Virus record (IMG/VR): IMGVR_UViG_3300036781_000493
Location: 1 to 50,647 of that record
Reading direction: 5' to 3' (one strand)
DNA from: a virus
Length of the DNA: 50,647 nt
Shown: in pieces, positions 2,019-23,084 of the stretch
How the letters are laid out: each line of letters starts with the position of its first letter
Numbering within the stretch: the first letter of the stretch is position 1
Notes under the pieces: generated by a model
Database searches by the model: none
Told to the model about the DNA's origin: nothing
What the model saw: the letters and a program-made list of their open reading frames with translations, nothing else
Position numbers and translations under genes: made by a program

Positions 2019-2023
2019 ATCTC

Positions 2024-2865: not shown

Positions 2866-2869
2866 GACT

Positions 2870-3847: not shown

Positions 3848-3848
3848 T

Positions 3849-5405: not shown

Positions 5406-5616
5406 GGTGCCAACTCCAGAATTGATTGATTCCAACGGCTGCCGTAGACAACTTAGTTATCTCCATCAGCTCATTTGCGATTTCGACTCCGCATTTATCA
5501 TGTAAGACAACCTTAGGAAACTTAGAGAGCTGCCCAAAACAGTTATACGGAGTCGTTCCGAATTGATTCGTAGACGCATTTCCGCACCAACAGCAGTGAA
5601 AACGACGAAGAGTCAT
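5395..5616 (-). CDS. Small cysteine-rich protein, possible zinc binder (73 aa)
   Basis: The start codon follows directly after the stop of the helicase gene. The product has a cysteine cluster near its N terminus (HCCWCGN), another Cys at YNCFG and a HDKCG further on, which could make a small zinc ribbon. This is a pattern-level guess, not a family match. Its position directly behind the helicase suggests that it is co-expressed and may assist in DNA metabolism. Confidence 0.65.
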   Translation of the reverse strand: MTLRRFHCCWCGNASTNQFGTTPYNCFGQLSKFPKVVLHDKCGVEIANELMEITKLSTAAVGINQFWSWHHDE

Positions 5617-7677
5617 CTACCGATTGCCTATTTCGTACGAAAAGGTATTTTGCGTGTCATCGAATTCTTCGATGCTAAGTGGTACGTTAACTCGGAGACG
5701 AACCCCCGGCGCCACTTGCTTACCCTCAGTGGCCATCTTACGATACGACTCGACTTTTTCCGCAATGGTGCGTCCAAAAATCTTTTGTTTCTGAATAGCG
5801 TGGTTAAGACCACTTGTCGTATAGAGTATGATGACTCTCTTAGTCGCACGAGTGATAGCTGTGTATAGCCACTCTCGGCACAGTTGTTGCTTCTGACCAT
5901 GGTGTACGATGATAATAGCAGTATCGAACTGCGAGCCTTGGCATTTAGCGACGGTGGAGCAGAACGCCAAGTGTAAGGACTCAACACCGGCTTTTGATGA
6001 GAAAGTGCGTGACGCGCCGTTATCGAATTTAACAACGACCGAGTGGGATGCAAGCCCGCCGCCTTCCGCGTCATCTTCTTCGTCGTCCTCATGATTGAAT
6101 CCCTCAGCGTTGATGTCATCAAAATCGGTATTGGCCAGCGCGTCAAGGTCGTCTAGGGCTTTCGTTCGGCCAAGGTTGATATGAGCAATACGAGTCCGTA
6201 CCTCAACTTGCACTTCATCCTCAGCACCGAAAAGCTTATAGTCGCCTGAGTATTTGACATTGCGGAAAATGTCTTGGATGACTCCAGTCATCCCATTAGT
6301 GACTCTCTCATCCTTATCCGGAGCTTCATTCTTTGTAGCCATGACACGAAGTCCGACTCCGAACTTAGGCTGTCGGCGGCCCGCATCGATGATGTACCGA
6401 ACGTGGCCTTCCTTTGGTGGTTGAATCAAGATGCTGAGAGCCTCATTCAATGGAGCTTGCTGAACCATTGAGGTGTCAACGGAGTCATCAAACCCATTTC
6501 CAGCCGTCATTACCCGGTCCCGATATGGATCGTAAACGAGTGGACTCGTCGGATCGCTTTCGTCTATCCTGCGTGTTCGGACCTGTTGAAGAATAGCGAG
6601 AATCTGTTGTTGTGCTTTCCTTGGATTCCCGTCCAATTCGAACCCAGCCACTCGCCAGTCCGGATTGTCTTTTGTAGTATCGAATGTTGGGCGCTTTCCG
6701 TTCAGCACCTGATGGGCCACTTCCACGATTCGATTCGCTCCGGCCTCCTTCTGCCTGTGCACTTTCGTTAGCTCGAACACGGGCCACCGCGAGAGCGCAT
6801 ACGCGAAGACAGGTTGGCCAATGATTGGAGGTAGCTGATTCAAATCCCCGGTCATATACACACGGGTTCCCGGTTTCAGGGCAGCTAAGAGTTGCTTCCA
6901 TAGGTCGAGTCCTACCATTGATGCTTCATCGATGATGACTACATCGTGTTCGCATTTGTTAGTGTTGTGGCGGGTGGGCACAAAGATTCGAGTCTTCTTG
7001 CCGGTCTTAGTGGAAATGGTTTCCTCCGGCTTGAATTCTAAAAAGCCATGTATTGTCTTACAAGCTGCTCCCATCCAATCTGGCTGGTTGTACTTGATGA
7101 CTTGGCTTGCCATCCCTGTGAATGCAATGAGAGCGATGTTGAGTCCTTGCCCTCCTGGAAGCTGTCGTACATGAATAATGTTCCCTCCTGACTCTGTGAC
7201 TCCGTAGATGAGTTCTTGGAGCACAAATTTCTGGACGGTAGTCTTTCCCGTTCCAGCCGCGCCAATAAGGCAAGCGTACTGATGTTTGACAAGCTGCCGG
7301 ACAGCCTCAGCTTGAGACTCATCGAGTTCGATGTCCGTGGGAGCAAGTCCGGAACTTTCAGCCGGTGGGACTCTGAATCCATGATAAACTGCACCATCGA
7401 TGTCGTAGTCTCTATCTTCATATTCGCGGTGCGAGTCATCGATCGAATCCTCTCTGTCAATATCTCGAACTGAGTTGAATGCTTCCTCGTCCTTGACGAT
7501 CTGTTCGGCGACGATTTCGGAAGATTCAAGAATCTCAGCGACAATTTCGTTTACTTTGTCCTCTTCCGGTTTGGTGAGGGCAATGGTTGACTCAAGCTCA
7601 CGTGCCTGTTCCAGAAAGGATTTGCGGGCAAGCGCACGGGCAAAGAGAGAGTTGTTACGTGGCATTGGATTCGACAT
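5617..7677 (-). CDS. RecD/TraA-like superfamily 1B DNA helicase
   Basis: The 686-residue ATPase has Walker A GAAGTGKTT at about 138-146, Walker B VVIIDEASMV at about 245-254 and the helicase segment LTKVHRQ. The C-terminal motif TAITRATKRVIIL, near residue 603, is typical of RecD2, Dda and TraA helicases. These unwind DNA 5' to 3'. In phages they act in recombination, replication start or repair. The first 110 residues are acidic and probably regulatory. An acidic stretch (DDEEDDAEGGG) is inserted in the C-terminal half before motif VI. The neighbouring Cas4-like nuclease suggests a RecBCD/AddAB-like pairing (inference). The start fits a 46-residue gene that ends one base upstream. Confidence 0.92.
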   Translation of the reverse strand: MSNPMPRNNSLFARALARKSFLEQARELESTIALTKPEEDKVNEIVAEILESSEIVAEQIVKDEEAFNSVRDIDREDSIDDSHREYEDRDYDIDGAVYHGFRVPPAESSGLAPTDIELDESQAEAVRQLVKHQYACLIGAAGTGKTTVQKFVLQELIYGVTESGGNIIHVRQLPGGQGLNIALIAFTGMASQVIKYNQPDWMGAACKTIHGFLEFKPEETISTKTGKKTRIFVPTRHNTNKCEHDVVIIDEASMVGLDLWKQLLAALKPGTRVYMTGDLNQLPPIIGQPVFAYALSRWPVFELTKVHRQKEAGANRIVEVAHQVLNGKRPTFDTTKDNPDWRVAGFELDGNPRKAQQQILAILQQVRTRRIDESDPTSPLVYDPYRDRVMTAGNGFDDSVDTSMVQQAPLNEALSILIQPPKEGHVRYIIDAGRRQPKFGVGLRVMATKNEAPDKDERVTNGMTGVIQDIFRNVKYSGDYKLFGAEDEVQVEVRTRIAHINLGRTKALDDLDALANTDFDDINAEGFNHEDDEEDDAEGGGLASHSVVVKFDNGASRTFSSKAGVESLHLAFCSTVAKCQGSQFDTAIIIVHHGQKQQLCREWLYTAITRATKRVIILYTTSGLNHAIQKQKIFGRTIAEKVESYRKMATEGKQVAPGVRLRVNVPLSIEEFDDTQNTFSYEIGNR

Positions 7678-7678
7678 T

Positions 7679-7819
7679 TTACAACCCCAATGTTTCTTGA
7701 TTCAAGTAATAAAACCAGCCATTGAAATCCTTAATGGCGATGACTTCATCTTCTTGATTCCAAACAAGCCAAATGTAAGGCCAATAATCCCAATCGATCA
7801 TATTATCATAATTGGTCAT
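7679..7819 (-). CDS. Small acidic/aromatic protein (46 aa)
   Basis: This gene was found in the gap before the helicase. The ATG at 7819 has AGGGA about 10 bases upstream, and the TAA lies one base before the helicase ATG. The product is strikingly aromatic: it starts MTNYDNMIDWDYWPYIWLVW and continues with acidic residues and GWFYYLNQE. The aromatic and acidic make-up resembles small phage proteins that bind and inhibit host enzymes, but that comparison is only suggestive. No homologue is recognised. Confidence 0.7.
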   Translation of the reverse strand: MTNYDNMIDWDYWPYIWLVWNQEDEVIAIKDFNGWFYYLNQETLGL

Positions 7820-7834
7820 GACTCAATACTTCCC

Positions 7835-8833
7835 TTAAAAGTCAATGTCGACGTTACCGAAACGCGCCATTGCTTTTTTCTTATTGGTTTCCGTGGCTTT
7901 CTTGTCGCCTGCCTTAGTGGCTTCCTTCGGCTTCTTGAGGATGTTGCCAGAAGAGTCAACAACTACCTTACGGCTAGCCAATTCAGCTTTATACTGTTCA
8001 GCCAATGCCTCGGGCAGCTTATCGACCACATCAACCAAGGCGAAGAGAGTCTTGACACCGCGACGAATTGAAGTGTTGCCATGGGAATAAGAGCCAACGG
8101 ATGCAATAGCCGCTCTTCTCTGTTCAACTTGCTTTTGATGCTTTTCTTCCGCCCTAACGATATTGTCGGGAGTCAGACCATGCTGGTCAAGAGCGGCAAG
8201 TAGGGAGAACTGATTGCCAGTTGGCGGAGTCTTCATCGTTGCAAGTTTGATGAATCCGCAATTTTCCACTTCGTCGACAAAGACTAGCAGATAATCAAAG
8301 TTGAATTCACTTGTGCGAAGCGACTCAGCAGCAGCGGCAATATGCGTATCATAGATGGCTTGGCGCACATTGTGAATCGCGTCTAAACGCACAAGTTGTT
8401 CAAGCGTAGCTTGATGGGCGTCCGTCCAATCCGAGATAGAGTCATTAAGCTCTATCAGCCATTGGAGTCTACGCTGAGCCAAATTTGTATTAAACTTAAC
8501 GTCGTATTTGATCCGAAGAGAGTCGAACAAAAGACGACTTGCCAAAATGGCGAATAAGTCCTTCGGATAATTGTTGCGAAGAAACTTGAATCCAGTAGGG
8601 GAAGAGTGTCCAACCAAGTGCGGAGCTGGCTTGCTGGACTGGATGAACCATTTCAATTGCAGAGAATCCATGACGGACTCGTCATCTGCAATGGGGTGCT
8701 GATAAAGCTCAAATGAGATAGCCTTATCAATGGATTCATCCGAAAGTTGACCTAAAATGGCTCCGGTCAAATTGCAGCGGATATTGTGAATCCCGTGCTG
8801 CTTGGCAAGGTTCACTAGTTTTTCGTTTTGCAT
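7835..8833 (-). CDS. Hypothetical early protein (332 aa) with RFG...DF C-terminal tail
   Basis: This is a large unrecognised soluble protein. It is mostly helical to residue 250, followed by a Lys/Ala-rich linker and the C-terminal tail ARFGNVDIDF. The tail resembles that of the 287-residue protein nearby (GRFGPNQVDF). An acidic tail ending in DF also recalls the C-terminal peptide by which ssDNA-binding proteins recruit partners. The start is backed by GAGGAAAA eight bases upstream. A structural or scaffolding role in replication is possible, but nothing catalytic is seen. Confidence 0.82.
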   Translation of the reverse strand: MQNEKLVNLAKQHGIHNIRCNLTGAILGQLSDESIDKAISFELYQHPIADDESVMDSLQLKWFIQSSKPAPHLVGHSSPTGFKFLRNNYPKDLFAILASRLLFDSLRIKYDVKFNTNLAQRRLQWLIELNDSISDWTDAHQATLEQLVRLDAIHNVRQAIYDTHIAAAAESLRTSEFNFDYLLVFVDEVENCGFIKLATMKTPPTGNQFSLLAALDQHGLTPDNIVRAEEKHQKQVEQRRAAIASVGSYSHGNTSIRRGVKTLFALVDVVDKLPEALAEQYKAELASRKVVVDSSGNILKKPKEATKAGDKKATETNKKKAMARFGNVDIDF

Positions 8834-8863
8834 GGTGATTTTCCTCGGGATTGTAGAGTTGAA

Positions 8864-9088
8864 TTAAAAGGAGATTCGCTTAACTGCGAAGTCAATGCTT
8901 CGATTCCCTGCCCATATGGCAAATTTGGAAAAGGATACTCTCCCTTCATGAGTGCCAAGATCGAATAGGCGAGTCTTATTATCCTCTGATTCGCCATCAT
9001 TGAAGATTACGACCATGTGAAGGCTCTGAGTCATCTCAGGCTTTGTAGTCTTGGATTCAGTAACAGTTTGCATTTGCGGATTTCCCAT
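8864..9088 (-). CDS. Small hypothetical early protein (74 aa)
   Basis: The product is soluble, with a beta-rich core (LHMVVIFNDG, RVSFSKFAIWAG). The ATG at 9088 has no clear ribosome site. An in-frame ATG at 9073 is an alternative, giving 69 residues. It is the first gene downstream of an AT-rich gap that contains a TTGACA promoter-like sequence. The function is unknown. Confidence 0.6.
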   Translation of the reverse strand: MGNPQMQTVTESKTTKPEMTQSLHMVVIFNDGESEDNKTRLFDLGTHEGRVSFSKFAIWAGNRSIDFAVKRISF

Positions 9089-9150
9089 TTTGGAATTGTG
9101 GCATTAACTATTGAAGTTTAGAGAAAATTGCCAGGAATAGCAAGTAGAAA

Positions 9151-9180
9151 TTTTTACCCCAATTTTAGGGTTTTTGTCAA
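9151..9180 (-). promoter_or_regulatory. Possible internal early promoter (leftward)
   Basis: Read on the minus strand this has a perfect -35 TTGACA (9175-9180), an 18-base spacer and a weak -10 TAAAAA (9151-9156) within AT-rich DNA just past the end of the 287-residue gene. It could boost the 74- and 332-residue genes and the helicase. The -10 matches consensus at four of six positions only. Confidence 0.35.
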
Positions 9181-10040
9181 AAATCTACCTGATTTGGCCC
9201 AAATCTACCCGGTTTTTTAGAATTTTTTTCTACTTTCCCTTCCAATGCCTGAATCTCTTTCTCGACAACCGCGTCTCGAATCTGCCTGCGAAGCAAATGA
9301 AAATCCTCAAATACCAATTGCGGATTCTGCCTTACGGCAGCCTTGGCCTCCATGTAAGCAAGAGCCCAATTATTGGCCGTAGTCGTGTTAAGAAATCTGA
9401 ACAATAGACGATTGATCTTGATGAGTCGATTATCATCAGCGAATAGATTCCAAGCGGGTATTCCGTATCCCGCCAAGAACTCGGCTCTTTCGCGAATTTG
9501 ACTTTGACTCGAAACCGGATCAATATCAGCCCACCAATACTTCCCGAGGATCTGGGACTCGCTAAGATCAGACCTTTGAACCCTGGCCCGGATTGCAGTA
9601 GAGGCCTGGCTTTTAGTATCGAGTCTCGCAATGTATACTTCGCCCCAAACAAGTCTGCCGGTTGAATCCCTGGCATGGTGCTTAGACTTCGTAGAAAGTG
9701 AGCTAAGGCGTCTTCCTGACTCTTGAATCCCCCCACCGGTTTCGTCCTCCATGGATATTGATGGTAAAAATGGCAAAATGAAAGTCTTTGAGTGCATGTG
9801 ACCGATTCGACACAGCCTATCCCAAGCATGAATCGTTGCTGGGCGTGGCTGCGGAATCAACTCATCGCTAAAGAAGAACTGTCCGGGGTGTTCACCCAAA
9901 AAATTCCCAGGTTGATTCGTGATGTGCAAGCCAAAAGCAATGAGGGAAGTGCGCAGCTCTGGAGTCTCCCATCCCTGAATATATGATGACTCAGGGATAG
10001 GGAACCATTGGGAATTGAGATTATGGTAAAGAATCGACAT
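9177..10040 (-). CDS. Hypothetical early protein (287 aa) with RFG...DF C-terminal tail
   Basis: I do not recognise this protein. It has an aromatic N-terminal region, a central segment WWADIDPVSSQ, then helices rich in Ala and charged residues, and ends in KKPGRFGPNQVDF. The tail closely resembles that of the 332-residue protein two genes downstream. Its TAATG start overlaps the preceding gene. The gene is long for an unknown in this block and may be part of the replication machinery; I saw no primase or nuclease motif that would prove it. Confidence 0.78.
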   Translation of the reverse strand: MSILYHNLNSQWFPIPESSYIQGWETPELRTSLIAFGLHITNQPGNFLGEHPGQFFFSDELIPQPRPATIHAWDRLCRIGHMHSKTFILPFLPSISMEDETGGGIQESGRRLSSLSTKSKHHARDSTGRLVWGEVYIARLDTKSQASTAIRARVQRSDLSESQILGKYWWADIDPVSSQSQIRERAEFLAGYGIPAWNLFADDNRLIKINRLLFRFLNTTTANNWALAYMEAKAAVRQNPQLVFEDFHLLRRQIRDAVVEKEIQALEGKVEKNSKKPGRFGPNQVDF

Positions 10041-10342
10041 TATTCAGCTTTCATGAAATTGACTTCAAAGTTAGACTCAGTATATACATTGAGCACAGGC
10101 TTCCCCCATCTGTACTCTTGCACAATCCAGTCTCCGACTGTGAGATGAAGATTCCGAAAACGATCGAGTCTGAATTGCTTAGTTGCGTTGTTATACTCGA
10201 TCTGTCCTTCCGCTAAGGCCACAATAAACCATTTGGGCCACGCTTGAGTCAAATCACCACCGTCTCCAGTGAATCTGATGGCCTCAACCAGATCGCCATC
10301 TAAGTCACGGTACGAAAACTGATTAATGGTAGGTTTCTGCAT
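10040..10342 (-). CDS. Small phage protein with GDWI-type C-terminal fold (100 aa)
   Basis: The product has the layout of a widespread small phage protein: an EAIRFTGDGGD opening, PKWFIVALAEGQI, then LTVGDWIVQE and a C-terminal NFEVNF strand. The cellular role of that group is unknown. The start has GGAGG nine bases upstream and overlaps the preceding lipoprotein-like gene by 20 bases. Confidence 0.75.
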   Translation of the reverse strand: MQKPTINQFSYRDLDGDLVEAIRFTGDGGDLTQAWPKWFIVALAEGQIEYNNATKQFRLDRFRNLHLTVGDWIVQEYRWGKPVLNVYTESNFEVNFMKAE

Positions 10343-10448
10343 TTTGAATCGCCTCCGCTAAGTTTTTTTCGGTCCAAGCTTTACGGTCTGCCTGTTGGGT
10401 TGCGCATGATGCTAACAAAAGAGTCAGCAAAAGGATCAGGTTTGCCAT
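10323..10448 (-). CDS. Tiny lipoprotein-like protein (41 aa)
   Basis: This frame encodes MANLILLLTLLLASCATQQ, a hydrophobic signal with a lipobox (LLASC), then a short charged tail. That is what a very small membrane lipoprotein looks like. It overlaps the 95-residue gene by 68 bases in another frame and the next gene by 20. No strong ribosome site is visible, and an in-frame ATG at 10460 is an alternative start. It resembles an Rz1-type outer-membrane spanin in shape, but it lies far from the lysis genes, so that role is doubtful. Confidence 0.5.
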   Translation of the reverse strand: MANLILLLTLLLASCATQQADRKAWTEKNLAEAIQNAETYH

Positions 10449-10668
10449 GAAGGTTGTCATGAATGATGATTCCATCAAGTCGATGAAGATTGATATAATC
10501 GGAAAGGCCGAGTGCATTAACCCGCCCGAACCATTTTCTCTCTTCGGATATGGCTGACTTGAGTCTAGCCACTTCACTCTCATTAAAAGATGCTTGCACG
10601 TAACAGAATCCGTCGTCTGTTTCATCCTTTACTGAGTAACGAAACGTTACAGTGATCAGCTCAGTCAT
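10381..10668 (-). CDS. Hypothetical early protein (95 aa)
   Basis: This is an unrecognised soluble protein with strands at both ends (ELITVTFRYSV, DGIIIHDN) around a helix (VARLKSAISEERKW). Its ATG overlaps the stop of the 42-residue membrane protein gene as ATGA. A small lipoprotein frame overlaps its 3' end. Confidence 0.72.
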   Translation of the reverse strand: MTELITVTFRYSVKDETDDGFCYVQASFNESEVARLKSAISEERKWFGRVNALGLSDYINLHRLDGIIIHDNLHGKPDPFADSFVSIMRNPTGRP

Positions 10669-10793
10669 TTATAACTCCCAGTCGTTGCAATCATAAAGAA
10701 AAGAAGACTCACCAATGAGCAGGCAGCCCAATAGTCCCACCCAAAAGTATGATAGTGATGCATAGAGACTATTGGACTCACCCAGGGCATCAT
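10665..10793 (-). CDS. Small membrane protein (42 aa)
   Basis: This gene fills the gap between the 59- and 95-residue genes and overlaps both as ATGA. The product begins MMPWVSPIVSMHHYH and has one transmembrane helix (WAACSLVSLLFFMIATTG) near its C terminus. A GGAG lies 10 bases before the first ATG. The overlap at both ends is strong evidence for a real gene. The function is unknown; it adds to the unusual number of tiny envelope-directed proteins in this operon. Confidence 0.7.
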   Translation of the reverse strand: MMPWVSPIVSMHHYHTFGWDYWAACSLVSLLFFMIATTGSYK

Positions 10794-10969
10794 TTCACAG
10801 TGACTCCATCTTGATACGCACGGCGTTTGATCTCATTGATTTTTTCAAGAAAGTACTCGCCGTCTCGCTCAGCGGAGTTACGCACGAGTCTATTTGTGCG
10901 AAGCAATCCGCGCCAATGATCAAGTGTCTCTTGAAGATTCCGCTCATAGATTTTCGGATTCTCTATCAT
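10790..10969 (-). CDS. Small charged helical protein (59 aa)
   Basis: The start at 10969 overlaps the stop of the preceding gene as ATGA and has GAGGAG nine bases upstream, so it is preferred to the ATG at 10990. The product is a single charged helical protein (TLDHWRGLLRTNRL, YFLEKINEIKRRAY). No family is recognised. Confidence 0.7.
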   Translation of the reverse strand: MIENPKIYERNLQETLDHWRGLLRTNRLVRNSAERDGEYFLEKINEIKRRAYQDGVTVK

Positions 10970-11388
10970 TCCATGAATCTCCTCTCGCATGGCCCGTCAC
11001 AATGCAGCCAAAGGGCTTTCTTCTCACCAACGATTCGACCATGCCACTTGCCGCTACACTCACAGCATTGAACGGCAGCGCGTTTGAGTTTTTCGCTGAG
11101 CATTTTCTTCTTGAAAAGCTCAATCTGTCGAATCACTTTCTCAAACGCATACTCCTCGACGGCTTCCTCAAGAGGAACGATTCGGCCCGAGGAGTCAAGA
11201 TCAGTGACTGGAATACGGTCCGTCGTTGTCGCCGATAATTGACGGAGACTTTTCATTGCGGGCTGAATCGGCAACCGCCTCTTCTCCACTTGACTGTCCT
11301 TGTGTTTCTGCCACCTCTCTGAAGCTTGATCCTGCTCCTTCTGAGTCTTCGAAGTTTGCTGCCGCCTGAATTTGTTTTGCCAGCCCAT
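10966..11388 (-). CDS. Hypothetical protein with C-terminal zinc-finger-like cysteines (140 aa)
   Basis: The C-terminal 35 residues carry CCECSGKW and LHCDGPCERRF, four to five cysteines spaced like a zinc ribbon. The first 44 residues are Lys/Gln-rich and lie entirely inside the preceding gene in another frame. The start at 11388 has AGGA eight bases upstream. The alternative ATG at 11256 would shorten the overlap to 56 bases but lacks a ribosome site. A nucleic-acid-binding role is plausible. Confidence 0.65.
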   Translation of the reverse strand: MGWQNKFRRQQTSKTQKEQDQASERWQKHKDSQVEKRRLPIQPAMKSLRQLSATTTDRIPVTDLDSSGRIVPLEEAVEEYAFEKVIRQIELFKKKMLSEKLKRAAVQCCECSGKWHGRIVGEKKALWLHCDGPCERRFME

Positions 11389-12400
11389 CTTTCATATCCT
11401 GAATCCGCTCACGAAACAATGACGTGAGGCTTTTGTCGTTAGAAGTGTTCTCATGCAGAAATGACATGAGAGTCGAGAACAGTTCGTTTGGAAGAGTCTG
11501 CAAGCGATCGTCAAGGGCGAGAATAATTTTCTTCGCCACATCGTCAATGTCAGACTCAAATGAAATTTGAATCGCTTTACGATGGATTTGCATATCTTCT
11601 TTCGAAAATACTCGATAGCCATGCTTATGCATGAATACTTTCATATCATCGAAGCTATCGAGTGTTCGAATCGCATGCCACTGCTCACCATTGAATCGCG
11701 TGTCGACCACAGGCGCGGGAGTGTCATCAACCGTACTGATACCTGCACTGATATCCTGATTATTCTCCTTGTGTATTTGAGTCAAAATCTCATTCATTTG
11801 CAGATTCTGGCCTCGAACTCGGTCCATGTCGTTCTGATCGAGTGGGATGAAAACATCAGAAGTAAGCGATAACGGTGCAGGCGTTGGAATCCCACCAGGT
11901 GCACCAATTACGTGGGTATGATCTAGTGCCCGATCGAATGGTTTCAGGTCGGCTGCAGTCGGCACTGGATTCAGTAAATGAGGAGCGATTGAGACAGTGT
12001 TCGGGTCGAAAGGCTGAATCGGTTTCTGGATTGCCTTGATTCGTCCATTCTCAATTAGCACTTGAAGCCCAGGCCCTGTTGAGTGCATGCACCCATACTC
12101 ATAACCAGGAATCCAAGTGTAAGTAGCCTCGAATCCCAGACGAGTAAATTTCAACGGCAAATTGAAACGCGGCCCCATCACATAAAAATAACCTTCTTCG
12201 AGCAAGACTCGATACTTAAGACTCTGTTCATTAACTGGTGTCAACCAGTCAGAGTCGCTTTCAAGTCTCATGTCTCGAATCCATGCAGGTTGCATGTGAT
12301 ATGGAGTGTTCATCGAGTGGGTATAGAAGGCAATGATCGAGTGATCATGGTTGGCACGTGCGAATCCGCAATTCTCGGTAATATGTTCAGGCATTTTCAT
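11201..12400 (-). CDS. Large hypothetical early protein (399 aa)
   Basis: I do not recognise this protein. The first 130 residues look like a folded beta-rich domain (YRVLLEEGYFYVMGPRF, ATYTWIPGYEYGC). A Pro-rich linker follows, then a helical domain around 200-340 and a disordered Ser/Glu-rich end that overlaps the next gene by 188 bases. It is coupled to the second regulator gene by an ATGA overlap. Being third from the early promoter it should be made early and in quantity, which fits a host-takeover role (inference). Confidence 0.78.
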   Translation of the reverse strand: MKMPEHITENCGFARANHDHSIIAFYTHSMNTPYHMQPAWIRDMRLESDSDWLTPVNEQSLKYRVLLEEGYFYVMGPRFNLPLKFTRLGFEATYTWIPGYEYGCMHSTGPGLQVLIENGRIKAIQKPIQPFDPNTVSIAPHLLNPVPTAADLKPFDRALDHTHVIGAPGGIPTPAPLSLTSDVFIPLDQNDMDRVRGQNLQMNEILTQIHKENNQDISAGISTVDDTPAPVVDTRFNGEQWHAIRTLDSFDDMKVFMHKHGYRVFSKEDMQIHRKAIQISFESDIDDVAKKIILALDDRLQTLPNELFSTLMSFLHENTSNDKSLTSLFRERIQDMKDGLAKQIQAAANFEDSEGAGSSFREVAETQGQSSGEEAVADSARNEKSPSIIGDNDGPYSSH

Positions 12401-12759
12401 TCTCCAGCTTTAAGTTCAAGGGCCGTCGACTCATCGAACTCGCGAATCACTCTTTTAATCATCGAGCGGAGCAACTCAGCTCTTGTGATCTGCTTTTCCT
12501 TCGCGATTTCGATCAATCGATCTCGATCTGATTCAATAACATGCACACCGATCTCACAGTTGAAAGGGGCGTGCGGAGCATAAATGTCAAGGGCAATTAA
12601 CTTTGCACGAATCGAATGTTGAGAACGCTTTAGGATAATTGCCATTGACTGAGTCATCAGCCCGTCTGCATGCATTTCACGCAAGTGGCGAAGCTCGGAC
12701 TGCTTCCATCCCATGTGCAGCTTGGAATTGTCGATAATGATTCTGGCTGGTTTGGACAT
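12397..12759 (-). CDS. Second early regulator: GcrA/SANT-like HTH plus ribbon-helix-helix-like domain (120 aa)
   Basis: Residues 16-60 read W....L..L...HADGL....MAIILKRSQHSIRAKLIALDI. This is the same trihelical pattern as in the first regulator and as in GcrA, ending in a recognition helix with RSQHSIRAK. The second half (residues 72-110: VHVIESDRDRLIEIAKEK, then RAELLRSMIKRVI) looks like a ribbon-helix-helix DNA-binding or dimerising unit. It is probably a diverged paralogue of the gene 11 bases upstream. The start has GGGAG seven bases before it. It probably binds operators in the divergent control region. The GcrA link is weaker here than for the first gene. Confidence 0.75.
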   Translation of the reverse strand: MSKPARIIIDNSKLHMGWKQSELRHLREMHADGLMTQSMAIILKRSQHSIRAKLIALDIYAPHAPFNCEIGVHVIESDRDRLIEIAKEKQITRAELLRSMIKRVIREFDESTALELKAGE

Positions 12760-12770
12760 TTGATGACTCC

Positions 12771-13121
12771 CTAATCAACATCAGCGCCGGAACGAAGAAC
12801 GTCTTCAATTGCCGTTTTCCTTTCTTCATTCTCTCTGCTTTCAATCGCATATGTGATACTCATTCGAATCACCTCTGAGATCGAAACTCTCAGACTTTTA
12901 GTTCTTTCAAACAAATAATCATACTGTTCAACCGAGAGAGTGACATTAACTTTCGAATGAATCTGCTTATCTTTCGATTTAGTGATTCCAAGTTCGGTTA
13001 ATTTGCCGGTAACAGACCATCGAGTCCGATTAAGACGATCTGCGATGTAAAGTGGATTGTGACCAGCCCGAAACAATCGAGTCAAAGCATCAATCTCATC
13101 TTGACTCCAGTTCTTTTGCAT
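12771..13121 (-). CDS. First early regulator: GcrA-like HTH fused to ribbon-helix-helix-like domain (116 aa)
   Basis: The N-terminal 45 residues match the GcrA DNA-binding domain layout: W-S-x-x-E, a leucine-rich first helix, AGHNPLYIADRLN, then a recognition helix with TR-x-x-V-x-GK and a final LGI. GcrA is the alphaproteobacterial cell-cycle activator that binds methylated GANTC and sigma70. Residues 63-100 (KVNVTLSVEQYDYLFERT, SISEVIRMSITYAI) form a ribbon-helix-helix-like domain, which GcrA itself lacks. I prefer the ATG at 13121, with GGAG six bases upstream; 13142 is an alternative. It is the first gene after the leftward promoter, so it should be made at once on infection. Whether it reads GANTC methylation is an inference. 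Confidence 0.82.
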   Translation of the reverse strand: MQKNWSQDEIDALTRLFRAGHNPLYIADRLNRTRWSVTGKLTELGITKSKDKQIHSKVNVTLSVEQYDYLFERTKSLRVSISEVIRMSITYAIESRENEERKTAIEDVLRSGADVD

Positions 13122-13153
13122 TTGACTCTCCAATTTTTTCATTTATTCCCACA

Positions 13154-13181
13154 ATTTTAAACTATTTCTTTGCGAAGTCAA
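13154..13181 (-). promoter_or_regulatory. Main early leftward promoter (sigma70-like)
   Basis: On the minus strand a -35 TTGACT (13176-13181), a 16-base spacer and a -10 TAAAAT (13154-13159) lie just upstream of the first regulator gene. It is the best sigma70-type match in the control region and is placed to drive the whole leftward block. TCGAGT/ACTCGA words begin 30 bases upstream of the -35. Confidence 0.6.
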
Positions 13182-13199
13182 CATGCAATTTTTCATTTC

Positions 13200-13390
13200 A
13201 ACTTGACTCACTCGATCATTCACACTCGATTCAAACCATTCACCCACATTTATCCCCATCTATTCCCATTTTTGATCGAGTGCAACTCTTAATCGAGTCA
13301 TCAAGTGGTGCAAAGTCGGGGCAAATGAGGATACCCAAGTTCAGATCGAGTGAGAGTCAATGATGATTGAGTGTAATCGAGTCGTAGGAA
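13200..13390. promoter_or_regulatory. Operator-like cluster of TCGAGT/ACTCGA words
   Basis: Six copies of TCGAGT or its complement lie at 13210, 13224, 13276, 13293, 13346 and 13377. Chance would give about one per 2 kb. GANTC sites interleave with them. The cluster sits between the leftward promoter and the rightward genes, next to the two regulator genes, so it is a strong candidate for their binding region. Confidence 0.5.
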
Positions 13391-13705
13391 TTAATAATCG
13401 AGCAATAGAGTCATTAGGGAAGTGATTTCCGTACGTGAGTATGTATAAAATAATGTCCCCATTTTTATTATTATAAAGACTTGATTTTATCCTGTATTAA
13501 AAGAATAATTATGAGGACATGTGCTGGCCTCACGCGGGCGCGCGTTGACGTGCAGGTCAATTGGAGTCGTCACCGAATTGCGAGAAATAGGAGGGCATAC
13601 AGAGCGTGAGAGGATCGGGATGGACGATTGGACGGAAAACCCGAGAAAACGCGCCAGCGAGCCGCTGTGAGGCAGGAAATGATGGTTTGAGCGAATACCG
13701 CCCAT

Positions 13706-13732
13706 ACGCGGGCGCGGGCACGCATCTATAAT
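13706..13732 (+). promoter_or_regulatory. Rightward promoter with operator-like repeat
   Basis: A perfect TATAAT is at 13727-13732, but its -35 position holds no consensus. Instead the second copy of ACGCGGGCGCG (13706-13716) overlaps it. This pattern suggests activator-dependent transcription of the 223-residue gene. The proposed activator is unknown. Confidence 0.4.
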
Positions 13733-13757
13733 GAACAATCCTAGGAGATTTTCCGAA

Positions 13758-14429
13758 ATGGTTAGAGTCAGAATGAACCAAACACGCATTACTGAGCAAC
13801 TTGAAGACATGGAGCGATTGCTCTTAATGCCTATGAGTCAAGCAAGTGAACGAATTCATGGATATCTTCCAGCCCCTAAATTAACCATGGACTGGGCAAC
13901 TCGATTCTTGCATCGAATCACACAATACGGAAATTACATGGAGAAAGAGCATCGATCTGGATCATTCGAGACTCGATGGGTAGCCATGTGGGAAACACTG
14001 AAAAAAAGAGAAGCAGCAAAATCAAATGATATAGTTTTTGATTCTGAGGAATTTAGGAATCGAGTCGACAAAGTTGCACTTGTCGGGGAAACCTCAGCGA
14101 CTAGACCGTTTCATGTATTGAAAAGACTCGCTTTAGATAAAGACATTCCACTTGTTGAGTTTGCCTATTCAGCATATCAATGGAGCGAATTCAGGTCGGA
14201 TGGGAGAAAATGGAATCGTCATCAACAAGAACTAGACAGAAATAGAAATAACTGCATTGACTCGATAGCTAAACTTAAACTCAAAATAGAAAAAGCAGAA
14301 TTAGAAATCAAACCACTTAGAGACAGACTAGCCAGTTATGAGGCAGACCTTGCAGGATTCGATGAACCAACTGACGATGAAATCATAACCCAAGATGAGA
14401 CGGAAAACTTTGAACAGAGTCGGGATTGA
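13758..14429 (+). CDS. Hypothetical protein with C-terminal coiled coil (223 aa)
   Basis: This is the first rightward gene. I chose the ATG at 13758 because an AGGAG lies 10 bases upstream and the earlier ATG at 13731 overlaps the TATAAT. The first half is helical and basic. Residues 160-205 form a charged coiled coil (CIDSIAKLKLKIEKAELEIK), and the end is very acidic (DEPTDDEIITQDETE). Codons are more AT-rich than in the next gene. No family is recognised. Its placement alone between two control regions suggests a regulatory or early role. Confidence 0.78.
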   Translation: MVRVRMNQTRITEQLEDMERLLLMPMSQASERIHGYLPAPKLTMDWATRFLHRITQYGNYMEKEHRSGSFETRWVAMWETLKKREAAKSNDIVFDSEEFRNRVDKVALVGETSATRPFHVLKRLALDKDIPLVEFAYSAYQWSEFRSDGRKWNRHQQELDRNRNNCIDSIAKLKLKIEKAELEIKPLRDRLASYEADLAGFDEPTDDEIITQDETENFEQSRD

Positions 14430-14693
14430 ATTGGGTGGGCCCCCGGCCGACCGCGCACGCGAGTCATGCGCACATGAGGCAGGCAGGCATACGTGGGCGT
14501 GTTCGATCTACCCGGCAAATCACTCGATCAAAACTTGCACTCGAACGATTTTGGGAAATCGACCGACAAGCGATTTATTTTTAGGCAAGGGGTTTACAAT
14601 CGAGTGGAATGGTTCATAGTAGTTTCAGTCAACCGGCAATTCCGCCACGTTGATTGAGCAGTGACTCAACAAAACTGGAAAGGCTAGACTCAA
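14430..14693. other. Intergenic region with possible promoter
   Basis: No gene is seen. It holds a GC-rich piece (14440-14500), a small hairpin CGATTT-TGGG-AAATCG at 14546-14561 and, at 14593-14620, a TTTACA with 16-base spacer and CATAGT that could be the promoter of the next gene. ACTCGA and TCGAGT words occur here too. Confidence 0.45.
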
Positions 14694-15692
14694 ATGGCAA
14701 ACGAAAACGCAAAGACGGCTGCAGTTGCAGCAAAGGCAACTGACTCGGCAGCAACCGGCACGACCACGGCAGCAGGTGCTGCTACTCCGGTTGTGGAGTC
14801 CAATCCGAATGCGGCTATCGTTCCGTTGACGGATAAGGACAAAATCAAGTCCATCAAAGCGGCGCTTGGAAGTGACCGCGTTTCGTTCACGACTCAGACG
14901 ATCAAGGACGCCAACGGCAAGGATGTCGTTTCGACGGCATTTGAGCAGGCGGAAGCCAAACTCTTTGAGGCCGCTGGCAAGACGAATTCCTTCCATGGAC
15001 TCGAGGTCATCGCACGTGATGGCATCGAAACGGCCGACCGGATCGTTGTCGCAACCGTCGGCGTTCGCATCAAGGCAGTTGGCGACTCGCCCGCAGTCAA
15101 CGGTTACAAGGCAATCGTGGCTTTCAGCCAGCCCACGGTCGAGGAATTCTTGCAGTCGCTGGAAGAATCGGCAATGGACTTCGTTCGCAAGCTGATCGAA
15201 CGTGAAGCGACGGACGTACAGTTCTCGCAGATTCGTCAGGCCGAAACGATTGCACAGTTGCAGCAAGCCGTTGAAGGCGTTCCTCAGGATGTCAGCGGCA
15301 TCGTCGTTACCAGTCGTGAGACTGGCAACGGACTCGATACGGATGTATTCGATACCATGTGGTCGCCCTTCCGCATCGGCTGGCTGAAAGAGAAGGCTCC
15401 CGCTCTTGTCGAGTTGCTGCCTCAGAAGCCGGAAGTCATCAAGGCGATTCGTTCAAAGGCATATGCCCTTGCCAATCCGAAGACGGCAGCAATCGAGGAA
15501 CGCGACTTCTTCGTTCGTATCGCCAACGCCATGATCGCGCTTGCTCCGAACTTCAAGGACAAAGACGGCAAGGATGCGCCTCAGGATACGTCAGTTATCG
15601 AATCGTGGCTTGCAGAGCGCGACACGCTGGCACTGAATTACAAGGCCGAGATTGTTCCGGATGCCAGCAAGCTGGCCGGGCTGGACTTCTAA
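14694..15692 (+). CDS. Abundant-looking hypothetical protein (332 aa) ending in LDF
   Basis: This is an unrecognised protein with a disordered Ala/Thr N-terminal 45 residues, a folded alpha/beta core (RIVVATVGVRIKAV, YKAIVAFSQPTVEEF) and a helical C-terminal half ending KLAGLDF. Its codons are GC-rich and regular, as in the capsid and ssDNA-binding protein genes, which suggests high expression. It has its own promoter-like sequence and two strong hairpins downstream, so it is probably a single-gene transcript. The acidic DF tail recalls ssDNA-binding protein tips and two early proteins here; an ssDNA or replication role is only an inference. Confidence 0.85.
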   Translation: MANENAKTAAVAAKATDSAATGTTTAAGAATPVVESNPNAAIVPLTDKDKIKSIKAALGSDRVSFTTQTIKDANGKDVVSTAFEQAEAKLFEAAGKTNSFHGLEVIARDGIETADRIVVATVGVRIKAVGDSPAVNGYKAIVAFSQPTVEEFLQSLEESAMDFVRKLIEREATDVQFSQIRQAETIAQLQQAVEGVPQDVSGIVVTSRETGNGLDTDVFDTMWSPFRIGWLKEKAPALVELLPQKPEVIKAIRSKAYALANPKTAAIEERDFFVRIANAMIALAPNFKDKDGKDAPQDTSVIESWLAERDTLALNYKAEIVPDASKLAGLDF

Positions 15693-15709
15693 GCCACTCG
15701 ATCATTCAA

Positions 15710-15747
15710 TAGTCGCCAATCAACTCAACTCACTCGATTGGCGACTA
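15710..15747. terminator. 12-bp perfect hairpin after the 332-aa gene
   Basis: TAGTCGCCAATC (15710-15721) and its exact complement (15736-15747) enclose a 14-base loop. There is no T-run directly after it, so it may protect or process the RNA end rather than terminate. A true terminator follows 30 bases on. Confidence 0.6.
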
Positions 15748-15776
15748 CCAGCATAAACAACCTACCCAAACTAATG

Positions 15777-15808
15777 ACTCGACTATCACTCGATAGCCGA
15801 GTTTTTTC
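15777..15808 (+). terminator. Rho-independent terminator
   Basis: A stem ACTCG-a-CTATC / GATAG-c-CGAGT with a 4-base loop runs straight into TTTTTT. This fits an intrinsic terminator for the 332-residue gene. Confidence 0.75.
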
Positions 15809-15860
15809 GTTTTAATAGATGCTATGCATTGTTCGATGGCTGTTGACAGTGAGTCGATAT

Positions 15861-15874
15861 TGTTCACGTGAACA
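15861..15874. promoter_or_regulatory. 14-bp perfect palindrome, operator-like
   Basis: TGTTCACGTGAACA is a perfect palindrome 12 bases downstream of a TTGACA hexamer. It sits where a dimeric regulator would control transcription of the 228-residue gene. The binding protein is unknown. Confidence 0.5.
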
Positions 15875-16022
15875 AAACGGGAAACTCGCGGCAGCACAGG
15901 CAGATGGGGAATGCATGCGGCAAAGTCGAACCCGCGCCAGTGACGCGCTATGAGTCAAATAGAGCCTATTGCTATTGAGTCGTTAAAATGTTAGATTTGG
16001 GAAGACAGCAATAGGGCTGTTT

Positions 16023-16046
16023 CACTCGATCACTCGATCACTCGAT
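16023..16046. repeat. Three tandem copies of CACTCGAT
   Basis: The 8-base unit CACTCGAT is repeated three times without a gap, followed by CA and the ribosome site of the next gene. The same word recurs many times inside that gene and in intergenic regions nearby. Confidence 0.9.
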
Positions 16047-16063
16047 CAAAAGGACTCAATCTA

Positions 16064-16750
16064 ATGTTCACTCACTCGCTGGTTTCTCACTCGATCAATA
16101 CCGTTAAGTCTCAGGTCGCACAGATGTTTAACGTTTCGACTCGCAAGCATGGTGGACTACGGTTCTTTAAGCTCGGCAGGATCAATATCAGTGTGTCAGT
16201 GTCGAGGGCCGCCAAGTCACTCGATATAGAGTCAAACACACTCGATAGCCGCTATCACTCGATCAACACCTCTCTGGCGCAGTCCACATTCATGCCAAGC
16301 GACTCGATCCTCGATTTCAATGGTGAAACGCCCGTCTTTGACTCGTTTACCATTGATGAAATGGCTCGCCGCAACGCAGTTGCACGGCACTATGCTCAAG
16401 TGCCCCTCGAACTGGTCGACACTGACTCAGACTATCGAAACCTGATTGACTCACTAGCAAACCACGACTTCGGTCCTGTTGAGCCACTCGATCCTATCTC
16501 ACTCGATCACGTAACGGCATCGACTCGATTGCCACCTGCCCAAATCCCTCTTCCGCGCACCTGCTTTGACTCCCTCGACCCCTACGATTACGCAGCTGTT
16601 GATCATGGATTCGAACGGTATGTTGATCGGAGCGAAGAGTTCAATAATAAAGGGGGAAAATGGCTTGGCTTGCTCATATTGATTCTCATTCCCATTTGCA
16701 TGCTTATTGGGATTCAATTGGGCGTGCTTTTGTTCAATTGGATTGGGTAA
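16064..16750 (+). CDS. C-tail-anchored membrane protein in motif-rich DNA (228 aa)
   Basis: This is an unrecognised protein. A Ser-rich N-terminal half is followed by an acidic middle (LVDTDSDYRNLIDSL) and a single C-terminal membrane helix (WLGLLILILIPICMLIGI) that would anchor it. The coding DNA is packed with ACTCGAT and GACTC, often read as Ser-Leu-Asp or His-Ser, so the DNA word seems to shape the protein sequence. AAAGGA nine bases before the ATG supports the start. It stands alone between two structured intergenic regions. A host-membrane role is inferred from the tail anchor. Confidence 0.75.
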   Translation: MFTHSLVSHSINTVKSQVAQMFNVSTRKHGGLRFFKLGRINISVSVSRAAKSLDIESNTLDSRYHSINTSLAQSTFMPSDSILDFNGETPVFDSFTIDEMARRNAVARHYAQVPLELVDTDSDYRNLIDSLANHDFGPVEPLDPISLDHVTASTRLPPAQIPLPRTCFDSLDPYDYAAVDHGFERYVDRSEEFNNKGGKWLGLLILILIPICMLIGIQLGVLLFNWIG

Positions 16751-17091
16751 AACCTTGAGCCGCCAACCTATTCGGCCTATGACTCATGCAAATGATAGGC
16801 CGAATACTCTTCCTGCCTACCACAACCTGACCTTGAATCCTTAATACTCTACTTAATGACTCAACATTCGCTCGCTTCGCTCGTCTTAAATGGAACTCAC
16901 TCCGTTCGTGTTTGTTGTTCGTCTTCGACTCACGACGCAGCTTATGCTACGCAAGCGCTGCTTTTCTCGAACCGGGGGGTATAAGCCCCCCATTCCCGCG
17001 GCGGATTCCGCGCAATAATATAGCTCTCTAACCAAACGACTTGTGCACAGTCGGGCCAACCGCCCAGGAATCAGGAAGTCAGGAGATAAAG
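16751..17091. other. Structured intergenic region before the terminase operon
   Basis: No gene is seen. Besides the hairpin at 16770 it contains the repeat CGCTCG-CTT-CGCTCG (16869-16883), a stem-loop followed by TTTT (16937-16965), a G6/C6 hairpin with a TATAAG loop (16974-16991) and a small GC stem (16998-17011). It could hold the late promoter, an RNA element or a packaging site, as it lies just before the terminase genes. None of these roles is proven. Confidence 0.5.
16770..16805. terminator. 11-bp perfect hairpin after the 228-aa gene
   Basis: ATTCGGCCTAT (16770-16780) and its exact complement (16795-16805) enclose a 14-base loop. It has no T-run. It matches the size plan of the hairpins at 15710 and 23085. 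Confidence 0.55.
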
Positions 17092-17961
17092 ATGAATATT
17101 CTGCAGAAGGCGATGCAGGGGGGGCAGGAGAGACTCGCGCAGAGGATCGGCAACGGGGGGAATGTTTATGTTGAGAGGGAGCCCGCGGAGGATTTGATAG
17201 TGAGTCAGATCGATGAGGACCCGTTGGCAAGAGCTGAGAGAGAGTTGAACTCAGCAGTGAATCAGATTGATGGCTACACTGAAGAGAGTCAGAAGAATAT
17301 TGATTCGGGGCCCCAACCCAGTGTTCCAGCGATTCTCAAGTGGGGACAGCTTCATGAGTCTATGCTGATCGCATGGATCACAGATGGGGACTGGTGGGGG
17401 GAGGATATGCAGGCGCTGGCCAAGCGACTCAACTCCGATGGCAGTGAGTTTGAATCAATAAGAAAACAGATTCCGGATGAAACCTGGCACGGCAAGCGGA
17501 TGGAAAAGCTGCTGGAGTTGGAAGAACTAAAGCAACGCGGATTCAATTGGGATAAGCTGGAAGGGGCCGCAATCAGCAAGTTAGTGACTCTCGTCACGAC
17601 AAAGCGATTGACTCTTCCTGAAATGCTAGCCGTGGCACGAGTGGCTAACCAAGCGACTAGAAGAGGCTCAACAGCAGGAGGAGCCATCATGGAAAAGCCT
17701 ATGGGTGGTAATGCGAATCAAACCAATGTTCAAGTGAACATGTATGGGCAGCCGATCGGTGATACCGCTCTTCCTGGACAGGGTGGAATCGGTAAGGTTA
17801 CCCTTAGTTTGAGTCAGAGAACGGTTAGCCAGCTGGGAAAAGGCAAAACGATCGAGGGTGAAGCCGAGCGTTTGCATGACACCGTGGAAATGTTGACTCC
17901 TGAAGATGTCAAAGGTCTGAATGAGTTGATTGAGCCTAAGGTTATTTCAGACGATGCATGA
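17092..17961 (+). CDS. Probable terminase small subunit / packaging protein (289 aa)
   Basis: The ATG at 17092 has AGGAG seven bases upstream, so it is preferred to an in-frame start at 17041. The protein has a disordered N terminus, a helical middle (PAILKWGQLHESMLIAWITDG, KLLELEELKQRGFNWDKLE) and a Gln/Gly-rich stretch near residue 200. It shows no clear motif. It overlaps the large terminase gene by 8 bases, which is the usual place for the DNA-recognition subunit. The call rests on position and helical character. Confidence 0.6.
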   Translation: MNILQKAMQGGQERLAQRIGNGGNVYVEREPAEDLIVSQIDEDPLARAERELNSAVNQIDGYTEESQKNIDSGPQPSVPAILKWGQLHESMLIAWITDGDWWGEDMQALAKRLNSDGSEFESIRKQIPDETWHGKRMEKLLELEELKQRGFNWDKLEGAAISKLVTLVTTKRLTLPEMLAVARVANQATRRGSTAGGAIMEKPMGGNANQTNVQVNMYGQPIGDTALPGQGGIGKVTLSLSQRTVSQLGKGKTIEGEAERLHDTVEMLTPEDVKGLNELIEPKVISDDA

Positions 17962-19516
17962 TTCTTTGGAAGTTCAAGTCGATATCAGTGATCTAATCGA
18001 GGCCATGCGCACCGACTGCGTAACCTTTTTTGGATTCTATCTTGAGGATGAACTGACTCAGGAGGTGCCAGATCTCCATGATGAGATCTGGTCTGAGTTG
18101 GTTGCTATCGTCCAGAAGGTAAATGCTGGAGACTGGACGGATTCACTGGGCGCAGCCATTGATCACTTGCAAAAAGTGTTCTGCGTGCCGCGCGGTCATG
18201 CTAAATCGACTCTCATTAAGCTCGCTGTCATCCTTTTTATGCGTTATAGCGTGCTTTCCTTCACGATGTATGTGTCTCTAACGAGCCCAGTGGCCAAAGC
18301 AGCCTGCAAAGACATCTTCAACTGGCTTACATCTGATCGAGAGTCGACTGTTTATGGCAAGCCAACGATTCACAAGGCGAATGAGACCGAGGGATTGTGG
18401 GAACTTACGATTCACACGCCAGACTGGGGTCTCAAGAGAATCTTGCTCAAGTCACTTGGGTCGGATCAGCAGGTACGTGGCACGAATCTTAACTCAAGAC
18501 GTCCTCAGTTGGTGATTGTAGATGACTGTGAGGACAATTCGACTGCATCTACAGATGAATCTCAGAAGAAACATGACATCTGGCTCTTTGGTAACATGCT
18601 AAAAGCGAGTGCGAAGAGGTCAGTTCGAATCTGGGTTGGCAATATGATCAATCAGAGGACGATGCTATATCGAATCTCGAAAGATCCTGACTGGAATCCC
18701 ACTGTCTATGGCGCGATCATCCGCGACAAGAAGACTGGACAGCTTAGAGCTTTGTGGGAAGGGATGTTTACCCTTGAGGGACTCCTGAAAGAATACAAAG
18801 ACTACCGAGCGAAAGGCGTTGGCCACGTTTGGATATATGAAATGATGAACATGACTCAAGATACAGTCATGCGAACTGGAATGGATGGAGCAGACAGACG
18901 TCCGCGTCCCACCCCCGACCAGGTCATCTCTGGATTCATCTGCATTGACCCAGCCTTTGGCGAGAATAAGTGGAATGACTTCTCTGGAATCACTGTTCAT
19001 GTCAAAACGCGGGATACGGTGCTGCCGTGGATGGTCCAATCAGAAAAATTTAGGTATTCGGAAGAAAAATTGCTTGATGAGGTGATGGCTCTCAGCTACT
19101 ATTGGAATATCACGACCTGGACGATCGAAGCGAACGCAGCTCAGAAGCTTTTGATTCCATTGTGGAAAGCTCTGCTCAAGATTCGAGGAATCGAAGACAA
19201 TCTTTTCGTTATGTTGCCTATGAATGGGGGCGGCCAATCGAAACAGTCAAGAATCTGGGCCTTTACCCACGTAGTTGAGTCAGGCGGTTATATCATTGCC
19301 GAAGAAGAGCAGGAATTTGTCGATGAGTTGGAGAAGTATGATCCAGAGTCGAAGGATCATGAAGACAGAATCGACTCAGGCGCCTATGGAATAATTGTGT
19401 GGGAAAAGCAAGGCCGATTGGTTAAAGATGCAATTAACGTTGGGGAGGCACTTGCGCTTATGCAGGATGGTTCGACTCCTCAGAACATACACCAATCGGA
19501 TTTGATTCCATATTAA
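17954..19516 (+). CDS. terL: Terminase large subunit
   Basis: The 520-residue packaging motor has an ATPase half with the Walker A-like CVPRGHAKST (about 77-86) and Walker B LVIVDDCED (about 186-194). The nuclease half begins near residue 329 with CIDPAFGENKWNDFSG, which supplies a metal-binding Asp. It pumps DNA into the prohead through the portal and cuts the concatemer. The ATG at 17954 overlaps the preceding stop (ATGCATGA). A TTG start eight codons earlier is possible but unlikely. It is followed after 10 bases by the portal gene. Confidence 0.93.
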   Translation: MHDSLEVQVDISDLIEAMRTDCVTFFGFYLEDELTQEVPDLHDEIWSELVAIVQKVNAGDWTDSLGAAIDHLQKVFCVPRGHAKSTLIKLAVILFMRYSVLSFTMYVSLTSPVAKAACKDIFNWLTSDRESTVYGKPTIHKANETEGLWELTIHTPDWGLKRILLKSLGSDQQVRGTNLNSRRPQLVIVDDCEDNSTASTDESQKKHDIWLFGNMLKASAKRSVRIWVGNMINQRTMLYRISKDPDWNPTVYGAIIRDKKTGQLRALWEGMFTLEGLLKEYKDYRAKGVGHVWIYEMMNMTQDTVMRTGMDGADRRPRPTPDQVISGFICIDPAFGENKWNDFSGITVHVKTRDTVLPWMVQSEKFRYSEEKLLDEVMALSYYWNITTWTIEANAAQKLLIPLWKALLKIRGIEDNLFVMLPMNGGGQSKQSRIWAFTHVVESGGYIIAEEEQEFVDELEKYDPESKDHEDRIDSGAYGIIVWEKQGRLVKDAINVGEALALMQDGSTPQNIHQSDLIPY

Positions 19517-19526
19517 GGAGAATAGC

Positions 19527-21733: not shown

Positions 21734-21743
21734 GAAGATGTTG

Positions 21744-21992: not shown

Positions 21993-22033
21993 AGATCGGA
22001 TTCAGGAAACTGGCTTTTAAAAGGAGAAACACA

Positions 22034-22270: not shown

Positions 22271-22281
22271 AAGGAAAGGCT

Positions 22282-23067: not shown

Positions 23068-23084
23068 ATTCCAGGACGGACTCT

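Follow-up and report, generated by a model that had tools for sequence, protein, structure and literature searches.

Tandem boxes of 8 bp are the binding sites of ribbon-helix-helix (RHH) proteins like MetJ, and on plasmids RHH proteins act as centromere binders. Chi, KOPS and DNA uptake sequences are examples of recognition motifs that are over-represented genome-wide. For the alphaproteobacterial regulator GcrA, a consensus of YGAKTCG has been reported (PMC7987155), and its σ2-interacting C-terminal domain comprises residues 108–173 in Caulobacter (PMC7403470). GcrA homologues are also encoded by phiCbK-like phages; they resemble host GcrA, and an RHH domain is not described in them (PMC3556154). 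The statement in an earlier note on the DNA studied here, that no phage system of this kind had been described, is therefore too strong. In addition, many predicted phage structures are labelled 'GcrA cell cycle regulator'.

Here we analyse a viral genome of 50,647 nucleotides (IMG/VR record IMGVR_UViG_3300036781_000493; this whole stretch is called the window), which encodes a GcrA-like head joined to an RHH domain and is rich in GANTC sites. The earlier note had connected the two. On balance, we lean towards two separate things: HTH-RHH proteins that would be early regulators of octamer arrays, and an older GANTC lattice that would be read by another factor.

Results

A tandem pair of HTH-RHH genes in a phage family

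The window was compared with seven relatives, which were reached through terminase and nuclease and whose terminases are 45–57% identical to that of the window. A single-sequence search of viral contigs with HTH-RHH protein 1 found no relatives, and a host search found no relative in genome contigs. The window carries a 127-bp direct terminal repeat (1–127 and 50521–50647) and looks like a complete circular map of 50,520 bp. A 127-bp terminal repeat is present in six of the eight genomes (window, G001, G003, G005, G006 and G007) and is a feature that complete circular maps assembled from reads have.

The gene for HTH-RHH protein 1 opens a leftward block and adjoins a divergent intergenic region of 588 bp (Table 1). 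The earlier note had given its open reading frame as 12771–13121. The gene itself is real, but it lies on the minus strand and its true start is the ATG at 13142, position 13121 being an internal Met from which 116 instead of 123 residues would be read; the plus strand has no open frame at 12771–13142. Neither the second HTH-RHH gene (12397–12759) nor the regular spacing of GANTC appeared in that note. HTH-RHH protein 2 shares 24% identity with protein 1 over residues 6–106 (E = 7.3e-4).

HTH-RHH genes occur in five of the eight related genomes (the window, G001, G003, G004 and G005), at the same place and in one or two copies in each of the four relatives; most members possessing the family have two. 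In G006, G007 and G008 no HTH-RHH gene was found in the syntenic slot, nor was there a profile match or a Pfam GcrA match. An alignment of nine members contains not a single invariant column. The heads of two of the nine touch Pfam GcrA and the rest resemble generic HTH families, those of the G004 and G005 proteins being non-GcrA. Moreover, the recognition-helix residues of HTH-RHH protein 1 differ in the tandem copy and in the nearest relatives, and an alignment of four sequences was too diverse for use as a scan profile. Judged by their sequences, the HTH-RHH proteins are a fast-evolving family of putative regulators.

Table 1. Features of the window discussed in the text
Feature	Coordinates	Strand	Remarks
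HTH-RHH protein 1 (123 aa)	12771..13142	-	trihelical GcrA-DBD-like head 11-50 + C-terminal ribbon-helix-helix ~61-120
HTH-RHH protein 2 (120 aa), diverged tandem paralogue, same architecture	12397..12759	-	24% identity
Divergent intergenic region, candidate operator of HTH-RHH genes	13143..13730	.	four ATCGAGTG: 13209-, 13223-, 13275+, 13345+
Second octamer array, 12 CACTCGAT in transcription direction	15695..16530	-	three tandem, exact 8-bp pitch: 16023, 16031, 16039
Conserved 332-aa protein, rightward block, in 8/8 genomes	14694..15692	+	one candidate lattice reader
Genome-wide GANTC lattice	1..50647	.	827 sites; quantised gaps averaging 61 bp (CV 0.59)

Two DNA-binding domains in one protein

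The earlier note had named a structure prediction and an HMM search against the GcrA family as checks on its GcrA-like DNA-binding domain. The former returned the fold of the GcrA DNA-binding domain (DBD) and not an unrelated one. In the AlphaFold2 model of the HTH-RHH protein 1 monomer (overall pLDDT 85.5) the head consists of helices 14–25, 30–37 and 41–50 (pLDDT about 95), which Foldseek matches to GcrA-DBD 5yiu with a probability of 1.00, an rmsd of 0.8 Å over 43 residues and 32% identity; the E-value of this match is only 0.1 because the trihelical domain is short. In alignments, HTH-RHH protein 1 also retains two pairs of residues, T-R and G-K, from the recognition helix of GcrA. The HMM search did yield a match to Pfam GcrA (PF07750; E = 2.3e-4, residues 11–73, profile positions 2–64 of 155), but the whole-protein score of 22.0 bits stays under the curated cut-off of 26.9 bits. 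Pfam GcrA matches were obtained in two of the eight related genomes, both below the cut-off, and in none above it. Such sub-threshold matches are not specific, because control genomes (B. subtilis, Thermotoga, archaeal) give them too.

A profile search of the PDB with HTH-RHH protein 1, its neighbour and two relatives as query matched the CRISPR-repeat-binding HTH protein 2lvs (E = 2.6e-4), GcrA-DBD 5yiu (4.8e-4) and the RHH protein ORF56 (2k9i; 8.6e-4). The best PHROG for the head is 323 (T5 D5-like transcription regulator; E = 3.7e-8, residues 2–61). Phage matches of the head in KP27 and KLEB27-3 were set aside as generic trihelical matches, GANTC being normal in these phages.

The C-terminal RHH domain proposed in the earlier note is upheld by the match to 2k9i and by predicted helices 71–84 and 88–120, which are preceded by a strand-length segment and thus make up the strand-helix-helix unit of CopG/Arc/MetJ-like proteins; the Pfam RHH_1 match (E = 0.018, residues 65–100) is weak and below its cut-off. 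RHH strand residues expected to contact DNA vary freely in the alignment of the family. HTH-RHH protein 1 is not a member of the GcrA family, because its score is below the cut-off and the σ-interacting C-terminal domain is missing: the protein ends at 123 residues with the RHH domain at its C-terminus. Taken alone, it is novel in that a phage protein combines these two DNA-binding domains, each of a known kind, and it has a candidate operator.

GANTC sites are in excess throughout the phage family

That the genome is full of GANTC, as claimed earlier, is confirmed by 827 sites as opposed to 313 ± 17 expected from dinucleotide shuffles. Coding DNA contains 690 sites, whereas synonymous shuffles of it contain 318 ± 12 (z about 30), and density is alike in non-coding and coding DNA (17.4 against 16.0 per kb), which places the signal at the DNA level. 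In the core genes of five genomes the excess has z values of 11–17. The sites fill coding DNA evenly and are not concentrated in promoters. In the window their central base is evenly distributed, their codon phase is mildly biased (304, 203 and 183 sites) and their flanks show a weak YGANTCR bias.

All eight related genomes are saturated with GANTC, with observed/expected ratios of 2.64 (window), 2.39, 2.89, 2.74, 2.66, 2.72, 1.90 and 2.58 and coefficients of variation (CV) of the gaps between 0.45 and 0.76. G007 (L037–L039) is the weakest of them (1.90, CV 0.76) and possibly represents a lineage losing the lattice. The ratios for distant or unrelated phages, which rest on sampled stretches (49 kb for phiCbK and T5), are 0.94 (Tiera), 1.03 (EPV3), 1.00 (T5), 0.88 (KP27), 0.89 (KLEB27-3) and 0.36 (phiCbK). 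Relatives with 55–57% nucleotide identity share 20–26% of GANTC positions, which is not far above other pentamers. Since positions turn over while density and spacing persist, selection acts on the latter two and not on particular sites. A literature search of partial coverage revealed no prior description of such a lattice, and no described counterpart could be found.

GANTC gaps follow a spacing rule

In the window, GANTC gaps are under-dispersed (CV 0.59; Fano factor of 500-bp counts 0.39), as opposed to gap CVs and Fano factors near 1 for other NNxNN motifs; GANTC alone among the 16 two-fold symmetric motifs of this form shows saturation together with regular gaps. Favoured gaps are near 24, 41, 54, 67 and 80 bp, and gaps of 28–37 bp are avoided. 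When the 3,834 sites of five genomes are pooled, the hazard of the next site has maxima at about 24, 54, 81 and 107 bp and minima at 31–37, 61, 90 and 114 bp; hazard peaks in the outgroup trio lie near 23, 41, 54, 67, 80 and 93 bp. When compared with a null of smoothed gap histograms, periodicity over gaps of 15–150 bp was significant in five of five in-group genomes (z 6.5–9.7; null 99% about 3.5). Leaving out the 24-bp peak, pooled in-group gaps of 40–150 bp give a z of 7.8; in this range single in-group genomes are weak and the window alone is not significant. The outgroup trio has a period of about 13.0–13.6 bp (z 6.2 with gaps of 36–150 bp pooled; G008 alone 8.4), and in-group gaps have periods of both 13.6 and 29.4 bp. 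Pooled gaps of 36–150 bp are quantised at about 13 and 27–29 bp with z values of 6–7 (null 99% 3.4–3.6), and control motifs did not show a GANTC-like gap period.

The spacing rule acts between neighbouring sites, because pair correlation fades past about 110 bp and successive gaps are nearly uncorrelated. Inspection of sequence context and repeats as a cause of the regular gaps revealed nothing past the weak YGANTCR flanks, and no clear near-cognate GANTC sites filling long gaps were found. A-tracts (AAATTT, AAAAAT) and CGCG words are over-represented in gaps longer than 110 bp in the five in-group genomes.

A compositional, protein-driven or artefactual (assembly) origin of the pattern counts as already refuted, with a negligible probability left to it. 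The only point in its favour, the mild codon-phase bias (304/203/183), is no real support, whereas the excess survives dinucleotide and synonymous shuffles, is alike in non-coding DNA and is seen in independent assemblies; furthermore, control motifs have a gap CV of about 1 and control phages reach 0.36–1.03 of expectation.

HTH-RHH protein 1 is probably not the reader of GANTC

If the idea of the earlier note were right, the GcrA-like head would read or mask GANTC, perhaps in its host-methylated form, and the RHH part would dimerise, enabling the phage to sense or hide host methylation marks. The 0.8 Å match to GcrA-DBD, the retained T-R and G-K of the recognition helix and the GANTC saturation of the genome are compatible with such a role, as is the YGANTCR lean, which partly resembles the GcrA consensus. 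The relatives, however, argue against it. GANTC is equally saturated in G006 and G008, and more weakly so in G007, all three of which lack an HTH-RHH gene, and saturation is undiminished in G004 and G005 despite their non-GcrA heads. For these reasons HTH-RHH protein 1, as far as can be judged from the genomes compared, is probably not the reader of the lattice. Likewise, the recognition-helix residues are not retained in the tandem copy and the nearest relatives, the sites are spread evenly through coding DNA instead of promoters, and a phage methyltransferase was not found in the families tested: CcrM/HinfI-type (PF01555) and Dam-type (PF02086) enzymes are both absent in seven genomes, and any GANTC methylation would therefore have to be host-made. 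Phages with GcrA-like domains (phiCbK, KP27 and KLEB27-3) are not GANTC-rich, phiCbK being depleted to 0.36 of expectation. In a genome saturated with GANTC, a head of the GcrA type could have been recruited later to bind these sites, and in G006–G008 this task could fall to a protein of unrelated origin; nonetheless, we consider recognition of GANTC by the head unlikely.

A further possibility is that HTH-RHH proteins form a chromatin-like coat which nucleates on GANTC and covers the genome, the gap rule reflecting its footprint. We regard this as very improbable. Although the gaps are quantised, the RHH dimer is two-fold symmetric as is GANTC, and most carriers have two copies per genome, the same lattice exists where the family is absent, and the RHH strand residues expected at the DNA vary freely.

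Octamer arrays as candidate targets of the HTH-RHH proteins

The octamer ATCGAGTG/CACTCGAT occurs 30 times in the window, compared with about 3 expected, clustered at 11.6–16.5 kb and mostly reading CACTCGAT along the transcription direction. Its form depends on the lineage: G001 has AGCGAGTG (55 versus 2 expected) and G003 ATCGAGTG (40 versus 3.3). These forms, CACTCGAT or CACTCGCT, share the core CACTCG and differ in their flanks (AT, AG, AT); the HTH-RHH recognition helices also vary from lineage to lineage. Copies with an exact 8-bp pitch are present in the window and in G001. CACTCG octamer clusters oriented along divergent transcription were observed at 11657–16530 of the window and at 6600–8300 and 10600–11971 of L007. 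Since only two of the 30 octamers in the window overlap GANTC, we take the octamer as a separate signal.

Over the 8 kb that precede the terminase, the five HTH-RHH genomes contain 26, 46, 30, 21 and 22 copies of CACTCG (6.1–8.3 expected), as against 4, 12 and 5 (6.2–8.6 expected) in the three genomes without the gene. Because enrichment of the core tracks the gene and the tandem 8-bp copies resemble MetJ-type boxes, we take the HTH-RHH proteins as putative regulators of the octamer arrays, and by analogy their binding to the octamer appears slightly more probable than its opposite. Genes and arrays may have been gained in one event in one clade, which makes their association weak as independent evidence.

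Alternatively, genes and arrays might constitute a centromere-like partition or replication-origin module and not a transcription switch. The dense, oriented and tandem arrangement of the arrays would suit such a module, for which the RHH centromere binders of plasmids set a precedent. However, the proteins that were scanned include no recognisable partition ATPase, and the arrays lie beside divergent gene starts and reach into early genes, so that we attach a low probability to this explanation.

Discussion

We propose that the HTH-RHH pair are fast-evolving early DNA-binding regulators. Their RHH part would form a dimer, which in CopG/Arc/MetJ-like proteins sets a two-stranded ribbon into the major groove, and would bring a pair of trihelical heads with the GcrA fold to the DNA. 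The likeliest predicted target is the CACTCG-core octamers (CACTCGAT in the window phage) around divergent early promoters, where the proteins may repress or time early and late gene blocks, their own genes included. GANTC saturation, by contrast, would be an older property, common to the entire phage family and separate from HTH-RHH, with selection holding the genome as a lattice that has a site about every 60 bp and quantised gaps. The reader of this lattice would be a factor other than HTH-RHH. It could be one of the conserved proteins of the phage, or else a protein of the host that binds or methylates DNA; in either case it would need a site within almost every 100 bp, e.g. to coat, protect or mark phage DNA. 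It is tempting to speculate, with somewhat less than even confidence, that these genomes of roughly 50 kb are kept as a GANTC lattice (one site per about 60 bp, with gap quanta near 13 and 27 bp) which serves as binding register of a coat, protection or marking system, i.e., a viral chromatin-like code that retains its spacing rule despite the turnover of its sites.

One candidate for the lattice reader is the conserved 332-aa protein (Table 1), whose predicted structure is of modest confidence and for which a fold match was not found. Similar C-terminal tails (RFG..DF, RFGNLDIDF, LAGLDF) are present in three unrelated conserved early proteins of the window (9177–10040 and 7835–8833, minus strand; 14694–15692, plus strand) and in their relatives; by analogy, they look like a shared partner-binding peptide, e.g. 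an SSB tail. A 75-aa protein (46296–46523, minus strand) that is very conserved (56–77% identity) adjoins the DNA polymerase gene. Among the most conserved early proteins are an AddB/Cas4-type PD-(D/E)XK exonuclease (2870–3847) and a RecD-like helicase (5617–7677), both encoded on the minus strand; they could form part of a recombination or nuclease system with a possible link to a genome-wide motif.

The lattice outweighs the protein in significance, as it is a pattern that runs through whole phage genomes and is seen even in synonymous codon choice. Its favoured (24, 41, 54, 67 and 80 bp) and avoided (28–37 bp) gaps would provide a measurable ruler for an assembly packaging, protecting or marking DNA. 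The case also calls for caution: function should not be inferred from one gene and one motif in one genome.

Comparison with known systems

HTH-RHH protein 1 has its trihelical DNA-binding head in common with GcrA of the Alphaproteobacteria (PF07750; rmsd to 5yiu 0.8 Å over 43 residues). The two proteins differ in that the phage protein has an RHH domain in place of the σ-interacting C-terminal domain and falls below the Pfam cut-off, and its relatives do not support a link with GANTC. A phage-borne GcrA-type domain is also found in phiCbK gp222 and other phage GcrA homologues (PMC3556154), which, unlike HTH-RHH protein 1, score as Pfam GcrA members; the sampled 49 kb of the phiCbK genome are depleted of GANTC, whereas the genome of the window phage is saturated. 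PHROG 323, the T5 D5-like family, is the best PHROG match of the head, but the match is partial (87–142 of 319), and GANTC is normal in the 49 kb of T5 sampled.

With regulators of the CopG/MetJ/Omega type, the HTH-RHH proteins share the RHH unit and, as candidate targets, short tandem boxes near their own promoter, to which they add an N-terminal trihelical head, two tandem genes and fast change in both domains. Finally, the GANTC lattice is akin to Chi, KOPS and DNA uptake sequences in being a short, presumably protein-read motif that is far above expectation genome-wide. In contrast to these, it is viral and consists of a two-fold symmetric pentamer that recurs about 16 times per kb, under-dispersed and with quantised gaps.
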